In this document: positions 20,354 through 30,209 of the stretch, one piece after another
Numbering within the stretch: the stretch's first letter is position 1
How the letters are laid out: each line of letters opens with the position of its first letter
Origin: Diploscapter coronatus
Taxonomy: Eukaryota > Nematoda > Chromadorea > Rhabditida > Rhabditidae
Direction: 5' to 3'
Assembly (NCBI GenBank): GCA_964036155.1
Contig: OZ038423.1
Coordinates: 35,479,249 to 35,543,248 of the forward strand
DNA: 64,000 nt
Made by a program: the position numbers and the translations under genes
Notes under the pieces: generated by a model
Database searches by the model: none
Seen by the model: the letters and a program-made list of their open reading frames with translations, nothing else
What the model was told of the DNA's origin: nothing

Positions 20354-21994
20354 TCACGGCAGCAATTTGAGCTTCTCGAGTTCATCCTGCAGTTCTGTTT
20401 CCTTGTTGATCTTCTCGAGCTGGTTCTTCTGCAGAATATCGCCCTTCTTCTGCTTCTCCTTAAATCAACCCATCTCATTCTATTCCTTGCAATCAATCTT
20501 TTAATGTCCCCGAGAATTCTTGAAAAAGACATACACCTGCTGAATAAGGAACAGGGAAAAGGGTAAGAATAGGGTTGGGCAGGCTGATCTTTGTCCAGTT
20601 GTCTAGAAATGTCCTACTCAATACACTCACATTTCGATACCGAACATAGCCTATCCTTGCCCTATCCCTATCTCTCTTATGGAATCATACATCCTCAGAA
20701 GTGTATGTTTTATAATAAGCCATCCTCGATGCTCACTTTCTGCTCACCTTGAGTTTGAGAATGTCGTTGAGCTGCCTGATGTTCCTGTCCTTCTCGCTGA
20801 CCTGCTGAGTCGGCTGATTCTGCTGTGGTTTGATTGCATTGGGCGCGACAGACTCCATGATGGCCGCTCGCTGTGCTGAAATTTACTCATCATTTCTCTT
20901 CAACGCAAGTCCTTGTCAGGTTTTTTTTTGTATTCCACATACACCTTTTGAGGAGAGAATAGGAGAAAGAGATAGGTGAAAAGGATAAATGGATGTAGAT
21001 TAAATGGTGTGGGAGCTGAGTATAAAATAGTGGAATACAGAGAACCCCTTGTCATAAATGTTCACCCACCTGCACTCTTGTTTCTCAAATGAGGAGGAAC
21101 GTAAGCGGCCTGTTGACGGATCGCTCCTGCAGGCACATTGTTGAGTGGATGAGAAGCGTCCTGAAACACAAATAGGCAATTCATTGTTTATCTGCAGATC
21201 TAGCAGACTAGGTAGACCAATCATTCAGACTAAAGAAAAATACAGGAGTGATGAAAAATGTTATCATCTCTTTGGAAAATCAGTGGGTACTGCGCAATCA
21301 CTCGATAACGAACTATTTTCTATATATTTTATCTTTACTAAAGCTTAGAGGGGAGTGCGCATAGACAATCTGGCTAAAGTTCTGTTTCTGTCTAGGCCAG
21401 CTTATCTGACAATGTCGTTGCATGTAAAAGCGGTCACATTTTCAAGAAGAAAGATAAATGTGACGACATTTCAAACTGCGCAACTCATTTGAGTGCAAAA
21501 TGTGTAGAATGTACATGCATACCTTCTTCTTGATGGGCAGGCCGGACTGCAGACGATCGTATTTGGTGAGCTCGCGGACCTCGAACTTCTGGTAACTGGG
21601 ATTCGGGCAGAAGGCCACCTGAAAATGCATTTTAATGGTTTTTATTCATTATCACATGAAGTGGAAGGAATAGACAGATAGACAATAACAAGCAAAAGAA
21701 GATAGGGACATTGTCAAATAGAGGAATCGACAGATAAAGAATTACAGAAAGAGACAGAATGCAGACAAAATGAAGAGACAATTGAATTCATGAGCAGAAA
21801 GATTCTGCCTACAAGAAGCAGTGATTGAACAGACCTGCCCGAGTACCTTCTTGGGCAAGTCGAACGTCTTCTCGTAGATCATCTTGCCCGAATAGTGCCA
21901 GAGTCTGTAGCAGTTGTCGATGCGCAGTCGTGGCGCAGTTGTGGCCGTGATGAAGTGCTCTCCATCAGGGGCCCACTCGAACATCGTTGTGTTT
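20354..21994 (-). CDS. eIF2A: eIF2A C-terminal part (3' half of dynein::eIF2A chimera)
   Basis: The sequence runs through the 5' end of the chimeric exon's eIF2A part (21835-21994), then 21523-21618, 21070-21160, 20748-20875 and 20354-20458, stop TGA 20354-20356. It encodes NTTMFEWAPDGEHFITATTA, APRLRIDNCYRLWHYSG, VAFCPNPSYQKF, AAYVPPHLRNKSA, then a charged helix ending KNQLEKINKETELQDELEKL. This is the end of the beta-propeller plus the C-terminal helical region of eIF2A, a non-canonical initiation factor that binds Met-tRNAi and 40S subunits. The N-terminal three quarters of the propeller are missing; dynein coding sequence precedes it in frame. A native eIF2A promoter and start are absent, so any product would be the chimera. 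Confidence 0.85.
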
Positions 21995-27900: not shown

Positions 27901-30209
27901 CAGAATGAAACGGAATTATTCAAATTTAAAAACCATTTTTTGGAATTGGATGAATTTTCAATACACGAGTACAGTACTATTTCTTTTCAAAATTGCGCAG
28001 ACAACGAGATCTAATAAATTACCTTGGGAAACTGGAGCGCTCTTTTTCGAGATATTCTCCGAGGGCTTTCTGGATTTTGGCGAGCATGCCAGCGAGTCTC
28101 TCGAGCATTCTCTGTGCTCCTTGCATGTTGACCACGTCCAGGATGCGCGGGGCACTTGTCACCTACAAGCATAGCGTGTAATGGCTTTTAATGTTTCGAA
28201 TATTCTCCCAGCATTTTCAAAATTTTAGCCATTTTGCGTTTTTTTCAAAAATGGATTACCTTCTTCATAAGACCGAGGAATTCGCTGGAAATGGATGAGA
28301 ATCTGGAGCTCTCGACAGGCAGCAGAGTGGCGATCTCAGTGGAGCCCGTGAAGAGGCCTTCCAGGTAGACCCATCTGCGCTGCACGTCGATCCACACGTC
28401 GAACATCGCGCTGATGCGATTCAGCTTATCCTCCCATGAGAGGGCGTCCTGAATAGCAGTTCATTTAAATTTATTCTAAAAATGTAAGTCATATCTCAAA
28501 TCAATCTAATTTTATTTAAATTAAAATAAACGTTACTGAATCGAAGGCAGAAATATATTTTTTCTTTACATTTTTGGAAGATCACTTCTTTCATTTTATT
28601 TCATCGAGAAAAATATAATAATGCAGACCTCTTCGAATTGCTTGTAGTAGGGCGACAGTTTCATGGCTCCGAGCGAATTTTGGTGCTCCTTGAGTTTGTT
28701 GAACAACTCATCCCAGCCCTTGATCAGTCGCGTTTTGTTCTGATAGTTGACCAGCTCGACTTCGTACGATTGCCAGAATTCGCGCATCTGAAACGATAGG
28801 AAGTTTTCTTTTCAATCGGCAAACAAAATCTTGCCTGTTTAAGGAACTCTTCGAGAGCCATTTCTCCCTGTGCAACGAGCAGAATCTGCTTGATGGCGTG
28901 GTCGTGACGGAGAAGGTCGGCATCCCAAACCTGAAAATCGCGGATGAATTGGAAACATAACTCTCTAAAAAATCCCGCACCCGCGAGCGGGTCTCTGTTT
29001 TACGGGGCGAGACGGGTGAGGGTTGAAAATTTAGAAAAGTCGGATATTGTCAATGGCCGATTACTTGAAACGAAATAAACTCCTCTCTTAGACTAAACCT
29101 ATTCAAAGCTTTTTACTTTCGCCATTTCACATCGTGTTGCCAAACAACTTGTCAATTCCAATCAATATTTCTCAAACTGACCTGTCCGAGAGTGAGATCG
29201 CTCAGATTCCAATTGACTCTCAGCTCCTTCCAGTGACGCTCCTTCAGGGCTTCGGACTTCAGCTCCGACACGAGCATGTTCATCTGAGTTTCGAAAGTTA
29301 ATAAATTATTTTTTCCGACTTGAGACAATTTTGATATTTTCGAATTCGATTTCGACCTCTACTTTAGTCTCAAACAAATTTCGATCGTGATTCCGACTTT
29401 CATTTCGTCCCTGACAGCAAAAGTTGAATAGAATAGATTTCATTCGATCGAAGATAAATAAACATTAAATTTAAACCTTGATTTTCTAGTCAAGCGGACA
29501 TTATCGACTTATTCGAATTCGGCCTACCTTTGAGTAATTGTGCATCATCTGCTTGGCATGTTCGTAGCTCTTGTAGCTCTTGTATTTGACGGGCAGATGC
29601 TTGAGCTGGTTCATGAGTTCGTCGAGCGACTGTCTGAGTTTCCTTGGCTGGACAGACAGCCAGGTCTTGTCCTTGATCTCATCGACCTGTGTGTAGATGG
29701 GGGAGAGTGCCTGCCAGACGCCCTTCAGATCGCCCAGCTCCTCGTTGGCCACGGCCAGTTTGTCTGCTTCCGTCGGCACCAGAGTCATGTCCGCCATATC
29801 GAGTGCGCTGCGCGCTTTCTTCATCTTCTCGCGGTCCTGTCAATTAAAACTTCCACTTATTATTTTTTCTATATTTCATCCAAAGCTTGCAAATAATATG
29901 ATTGCGTATGGTCAAAAATCCAAACTGCTCGATGAGCTGAGAACTTGGAAATGATATGCAACCTACACAATTCAAAAATCAAATATAGTTGTAAGGTGTA
30001 AAATAATGCAAGAATTAATAATTCAAATTCATGATTACCTCAGCCAATTTGTTGATCTTAGCCTCGAACTGCGCGAGAGTGGCGAGTGCCTCTGTAGGTC
30101 TCTGCGCTCCTTCCACAGGCTTTGCCTTCTCCCACTCGGACAAGATCTCGATGGTCCTTTTCTCGACCAGTTCGTCCTCTTCCTTGATCTTCGTTTGCAG
30201 ATTGCTCAC
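21995..30209 (-). CDS. dhc-1: Cytoplasmic dynein heavy chain, central part (5' half of dynein::eIF2A chimera)
   Basis: Exons: 30039-30209, 29528-29836, 29182-29283, 28835-28930, 28629-28787, 28260-28448, 28023-28162, 27530-27787, 26853-27015, 26589-26693, 26424-26540, 26002-26147, 25835-25955, 25462-25581, 25107-25295, 24789-25004, 24614-24738, 24115-24205, 23832-24070, 23442-23616, 22993-23140, 22850-22945, 22568-22725, 22375-22521, then the fusion exon 21835-22077. Phases agree throughout; there is no stop. The protein covers tail end and linker ([22 protein letters not shown]), AAA1 (Walker [39 protein letters not shown]) and AAA2 (P-loop [44 protein letters not shown]). It stops just before AAA3 at [14 protein letters not shown]. 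The first ~1,100 residues and AAA3-AAA6 with the stalk are missing, so it cannot be a working motor alone. Two introns use GC donors (after 28835 and 22375). Confidence 0.9.
25679..25790. mobile_element. Tc1/mariner-type MITE in dynein intron
   Basis: The ends are TACATTAGCGAATAAAAGTA and, inverted, TACAGTGGCGGACAAAAGTA, with TA at both borders, length 112 bp, in the intron between exons 25462-25581 and 25835-25955. The 'CAGTGGC...AAAAGT' terminus is typical of Tc1/mariner elements. It has no coding capacity. Confidence 0.65.

Follow-up and report, generated by a model that had tools for sequence, protein, structure and literature searches.

The open frame described here joins part of a cytoplasmic dynein heavy chain to the end of eIF2A within one exon, and the question is whether it is a new gene, a very recent rearrangement or an assembly join, as the first-pass annotation had asked. 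The frame lies in a window of 64 kb (C2:35479249-35543248), by which we mean the whole stretch of DNA that was analyzed. Positions without a contig prefix refer to the window, and C1 and C2 are the two large contigs of the assembly.

The chimeric frame and its junction

The gene model of the chimera (20354..30421, minus strand) consists of 29 exons encoding 1,458 aa with no internal stop. The predicted start is an in-frame ATG at 30421-30419 and the stop is the native eIF2A stop at 20354. All 28 introns have GT/GC-AG boundaries (26 GT-AG and 2 GC-AG). The first 1,264 codons of the frame come from cytoplasmic dynein heavy chain and cover the linker, AAA1 and AAA2; the remaining 195, stop included, are from the eIF2A C-terminus. 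The Pfam domains follow in the order DHC_N2, AAA_6 (AAA1), AAA_5, Dynein_AAA_lid and eIF2A. An in-frame chimera that switches genes inside one exon, and a continuous frame that runs to the native eIF2A stop, had both been proposed in the first-pass annotation, and the spliced frame and the domain order bear this out. Its codon counts (1,287 dynein and 194 eIF2A) needed correction to those given above, and the frame starts one exon earlier than claimed, with dynein homology reaching to about 30428-30438. Behind the exon that ends at 22375, the donor (22374-22373) of the chimera reads GC, where both parents have GT.

Neither half represents a complete protein. The dynein part matches about residues 1227-2559 (1227-2388 and 2428-2559, PDB match) of the 4,646-residue human DYNC1H1 chain. 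Pfam recognizes the linker, AAA1 and AAA2 only, where a complete cytoplasmic dynein heavy chain has a tail, an AAA1-AAA6 ring and a stalk with a microtubule-binding domain. The dynein part presumably breaks off at about the start of AAA3, and by eye we take the Walker A, Walker B and sensor motifs of AAA1 to be intact. The eIF2A part covers positions 136-189 of the 194 in the Pfam model (about the last quarter) plus the tail, and lacks the N-terminal beta-propeller that accompanies the C-terminal tail in full eIF2A. Gene models were made with a simple program based on codon usage and splice sites, trained on the chimera locus. Comparison with the parents led to manual correction of a wrong acceptor (27069) and one skipped exon. 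Beyond the compared region the parental models are imperfect, and the C1 dynein stretch used starts within the gene.

The chimeric exon (21835..22077, minus strand) was defined by the gene model and by parental alignment. When it is read on the minus strand from 22077 to 21835, dynein homology runs as far as 22000, and eIF2A homology is present from 22009 onward. In the alignment with the four parental loci, the fusion junction (22000..22009) is thus a 10-bp perfect microhomology, GTCGATCTGC, which is identical in 4 of 4 loci and is read in the same frame in dhc-1 and eIF2A, giving Q-I-D in both proteins. The earlier suggestion of a microhomology join holds, with these 10 bp in place of the single shared V codon. 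The residues 'VETHK' assigned to dynein at the junction do not belong there, as parental dynein continues IDIEPHRVAA. No second place spanning both sides of the junction was found in the genome search.

A third copy inside a composite insertion

The assembly totals 169.7 Mb in three contigs, C1 (87.7 Mb), C2 (82.0 Mb) and a third of about 13 kb (by subtraction). The first-pass annotation had suggested searching the genome for intact parents and comparing their divergence. Apart from the chimera, the genome DNA search gave one close match per contig for each gene, at corresponding positions: dhc-1 at C2:16.70M and C1:17.60M, and eIF2A at C2:81.70M and C1:87.62M. C1 and C2 therefore act like a pair of diverged homologues, which agrees with published Diploscapter genomes: parthenogenetic D. 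coronatus is described with 2n = 2, a diploid assembly of 170 Mbp and 5.7% heterozygosity (PMC5483258), and D. pachys likewise has a single chromosome pair (PMC9071541). Reading frames are unbroken across the compared region at all four parental loci. In the genome DNA searches the best 25-40 candidates were scored, so that in several of those made with other parts of the region high-copy repeats may mask single-copy matches; when the less repetitive parts of the insertion described below were searched again, further related places were found.

The dynein segment (22000..30438, minus strand) matches C2:16.70M at 93% and C1:17.60M at 91% by BLASTN, and the eIF2A 3' segment with its 3' flank (20198..22009, minus strand) matches C2:81.70M and C1:87.62M at 88-91% per piece. 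With gaps left out, the dynein segment differs by 4.68% between chimera and C2, 5.59% between chimera and C1 and 6.35% between C1 and C2; for the eIF2A segment the values are 5.83%, 6.09% and 7.0%, respectively. With exons and introns pooled, each half is 94-95% identical to its parents over the aligned bases, so that the homology of both halves is more than chance. Being 4.7-6.1% different from the parents, the chimera is a third copy with introns, slightly closer to C2. Two ancestral dhc-1 and two ancestral eIF2A loci persist and the frames are continuous, as in a chimeric gene duplicate.

Two other origins were considered. A retrocopy is ruled out as introns are kept (their noncoding difference to the parents is 6.4-8.2%). 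A C1/C2 mosaic origin was dropped because, with three sequences, the sites in question are private changes of the third copy and carry no topology information. The chimera has fewer private noncoding changes than C2 in both the dynein half (117 vs 179, chi-square 13.0) and the eIF2A half (28 vs 41, chi-square 2.4), and these differences come partly from one C2-divergent block.

The chimera is part of a 36.6-kb composite insertion (C2:35473036-35509674; 1..30426 of the window) that is present on C2 only and had gone unnoticed in the first-pass annotation. Homology of C2 to the C1 allele stops at 35473035 and restarts at 35509675. In its place C1 has 874 bp, between 37756483 and 37757358, and the C1 allele runs uninterrupted through the glucocerebrosidase (GH30, gba) gene. 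Segments of the insertion are related to C2:8.4M, 19.24M, 42.49M, 67.45M, 81.70M and 16.70M, and repeat elements are also found inside. The C2:8.4M relatives form a family at several places (84-88%), and a match to 25.5M is 158 bp long. One duplicated segment (14806..20012) is related to C2:67.45M and C1:72.30M and is interrupted by a repeat element at about 16687-18878. Another (3231..7696) is related to C2:19.24M and C1:20.36M at 91%; its private branch is 4.37%, against 2.1 and 2.7% for its C1 and C2 relatives, with coding and noncoding sites pooled. Private divergence within the insertion is thus 2.7% for dynein and eIF2A (noncoding) and 4.4% for the 19M segment (all sites), and its segments may have different ages.

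Several further features were observed in and around these segments. The repeat element at 16687-18878 is about 2.2 kb long with terminal inverted repeats of roughly 540 bp; with further copies on C2 reaching 99% identity, it has probably been active recently. AAA_11 and AAA_12 (helicase-type) fragments lie at 9613-12500 (minus strand) inside the insertion, with partial copies at C2:42.49M (75-92% identical). C2:8368643-8374836 and C2:8449837-8456030 form an inverted pair about 80 kb apart with identical match scores, which suggests a large palindrome or a very recent inverted duplication.

The right junction of the insertion lies within a gba exon. On C2 the gba gene (30427..33616, plus strand) has lost its 5' exons at this junction; by eye, the upstream exons are present on C1. 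The dynein/gba junction (30427..30438) is a 12-bp imperfect overlap with the 6-bp core CGTTCA. Only about 6-9 bp separate the ATG of the chimera from gba sequence, so that the interval between the two truncated genes contains nothing of known promoter origin. At 32310-32955 the gba region of C2 also carries a high-copy element, about 650 bp long, that is missing from the C1 allele. The insertion has features of template switching: its segments are related to at least five dispersed places whose sources are kept, and microhomology of 10 bp and 6 bp is seen at two junctions, the only ones for which both partners were available for comparison.

Selection on the two halves and the truncated neighbour

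Private changes of the chimera were counted at sites where C1 and C2 agree, and expectations were derived from the private noncoding spectrum. Private noncoding changes were found at 117 of 4,266 sites in the dynein half and 28 of 1,019 in the eIF2A half, or 2.7% each (exon ends used here and for the parental branches differ slightly from those of the final coding count), as expected for material of a single age. The dynein coding sequence (1,262 codons; the private nonsynonymous site 30429, inside the gba overlap, was excluded) carries 4 nonsynonymous and 24 synonymous private changes against 80.6 and 44.5 expected, and no stop against 6.4 expected. No frameshift was observed against about 13 expected. 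In the eIF2A coding sequence (195 codons) there are 11 nonsynonymous and 4 synonymous private changes, with 12.5 and 6.7 expected. The two halves differ in their nonsynonymous/synonymous counts (Fisher P 0.0002): the dynein half is strongly constrained and the eIF2A half shows no constraint. On the parental branches the nonsynonymous/synonymous counts are 9/93 for dynein and 2/16 for eIF2A.

All three private coding deletions (12 and 3 bp in dynein, 12 bp in eIF2A) are in frame, compared with 4 of the 22 indels private to its noncoding sequence (binomial P 0.006, Fisher P 0.015), where an indel was assigned to one branch only if it was cleanly aligned and overlapping gaps were dropped. The 12-bp dynein deletion removes four residues from a stretch that is otherwise equal in length to the human one. 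A 4-base gap at one exon edge, shared by the chimera and C2, was rejected as a real indel; it is an alignment effect, and the exon has 163 bases in 3 of 3 models.

Gene conversion by the parents does not explain why dynein has so few nonsynonymous changes, as conversion affects both classes and only the nonsynonymous one is nearly gone. The private synonymous changes of dynein are about half of the expectation (24 vs 44.5, P 0.0006), to which some conversion or codon bias may have contributed. When the share of the private branch spent under relaxed selection was fitted, the dynein half gave 0.02 (at most 0.085) and the eIF2A half 0.84. The lower bound for eIF2A is 0.45, or 0.07 if two tight clusters of changes are each counted once, a grouping made post hoc.

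The truncated gba was analyzed in the same manner. Between C1 and C2 it shows 9 nonsynonymous and 42 synonymous differences and no gap over nine exons (321 codons by the model). Neutral decay over one full chimera-private branch was rejected even with all nine nonsynonymous changes placed on C2 (P 0.004). The fit is 0.19 of the chimera-private branch with an upper bound of 0.52 (background 5.1, assumed omega 0.06), on the assumption that the remnant is functionless and unconverted by relatives. C2 carries other gba-like sequence, a 98% copy of a later part of the gba region at C2:35.39M, and such a relative could have converted the remnant.

Origin of the fusion

We read the chimera as a young side product of DNA repair and not as an established new gene, with mostly inherited constraint on its dynein half, and give this reading as a whole a probability of about 0.6. 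A break at the gba locus would have been repaired through copying primed by microhomology (template switching) or through end joining of the theta type, which may have joined copies of dispersed loci, among them an 8.4-kb internal piece of dhc-1 and the 1.8-kb 3' end of eIF2A. The insertion replaced 0.87 kb of the gba locus and took away the gba 5' exons. The frame would be open because the donors share phase across the microhomology and the join is young. Since the truncated gba still looks constrained, the junction is probably younger than the copied material; the gba (at most 0.52) and dynein (at most 0.085) fits agree on this. Constraint on the dynein half would then be mostly that of a functional dhc-1 copy or haplotype outside this assembly. 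The earlier notion of a very recent rearrangement applies to the junction alone and in relative terms: the copied material carries 2.7% private noncoding divergence, and gba indicates a junction younger than this.

Against a young join, the eIF2A half looks relaxed for most of its private branch (0.84), which contradicts a single recent event unless the clusters of changes are single mutational events or the eIF2A piece was inserted earlier. The strongest counterpoint is the in-frame state of all three coding deletions, which points to frame-keeping selection. Either eIF2A arrived earlier, or the clusters were made at once, or dynein has truly been selected and the constraint on gba has another cause. 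We weigh the first two above the last because no promoter is evident and a motor fragment without its ring partners is unlikely to be almost as constrained as the complete motor.

An accretion in two steps, which overlaps with the reading of a young repair-made join, is possible but remains doubtful. The eIF2A fragment would have come first and decayed, and dynein would later have entered between eIF2A and gba. This would account for the differing relaxed fractions (no less than 0.45 for eIF2A, no more than 0.085 for dynein and no more than 0.52 for gba), and the longer private branch of the 19M segment (4.37%, coding and noncoding pooled) suggests that segment ages may differ. The near-identical private noncoding divergence of the two halves, however, would then be a coincidence.

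Slightly less probable still, and in our view unlikely, is a functional new gene, in which microhomology repair on one homologue of an apparently clonal nematode would have joined an AAA1/AAA2 dynein piece to a translation-factor tail, the truncated dynein (linker, AAA1 and AAA2) being under purifying selection since the fusion and the eIF2A tail a drifting passenger. The spliced frame of 1,458 aa with 28 regular introns, the dynein counts (4:24 against 80.6 and 44.5, with 0 of 6.4 expected stops), the lack of the roughly 13 expected frameshifts and the three in-frame deletions (two in dynein, one in eIF2A) would all agree with it, and the near-neutral rate of eIF2A, together with equal noncoding divergence, would suggest one event long ago. 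However, the adjoining truncated gba has not decayed over the same time, and there is no sequence of known promoter origin between the truncated genes, although a cryptic or antisense promoter may act there. The dynein piece lacks the tail, AAA3-6, the stalk and the microtubule-binding domain and should therefore have lost constraint at many interfaces, yet its ratio is near the parental one. The chimera is also present on one homologue only.

A misjoin of dhc-1 and eIF2A reads during assembly, also raised in the first-pass annotation, is very improbable, since the chimera is a separate third copy 4.7-6.1% different, introns included, from parents that lie on both contigs, a 10-bp overlap is too short for a read-overlap error, and the insertion carries more segments of like kind.

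Searches of public proteins and comparison with known systems

In a search of public proteins (0.55-1.75 times the query length), no eIF2A family appeared in the domain lists of the 120 listed of 572 matches, and in a second search with the same length limits the sole match was an eIF2A of Thelazia for which no dynein domain was listed. This absence of a fusion says little, as no Diploscapter was found among the 120 listed of 206 matches to parental eIF2A. A literature search, judged by the titles of the papers listed, gave none on a dynein heavy chain-eIF2A fusion gene.

The locus is a well-resolved case in which dispersed gene pieces formed an open fusion frame in a genome of seemingly two diverged homologues. 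As the parents, an insertion-free allele and a truncated neighbouring gene are all available, one can test directly how old a newborn chimera is and what selection acts on it. The case is also a caution: a chimera may owe its intact frame and low dN/dS to its parents and not to selection on the chimera itself.

One study counted 40% of young C. elegans duplicate pairs as chimeric, a share that is probably closer to 23% once corrected (PMC3449122). Like the present chimera, these Caenorhabditis duplicates derive from duplicated parts of at least two ancestral genes. The present case differs from them in joining two conserved genes from distant loci, in its exon-internal in-frame join and in lying within a multi-segment insertion on one homologue. 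Sdic of Drosophila melanogaster (PMC3395120) is likewise a young chimera of a dynein subunit with its intact parents kept. In Sdic, neighbouring genes were joined, the coding sequence comes from dynein intermediate chain alone, and a tested promoter and a phenotype are described, whereas in the present case, a predicted gene, both partners contribute coding sequence and lie far apart. Microhomology joins and copy gain are also features of chromoanasynthesis or template switching (PMC6371609) and of end joining by polymerase theta in C. elegans (PMC4490562). The templated inserts attributed to theta there (PMC4490562) copy sequence near the break, whereas here kilobases from distant loci were copied, perhaps in more than one event. 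The chimera is real, in frame and joined by microhomology, and it joins the known class of chimeric gene duplicates.
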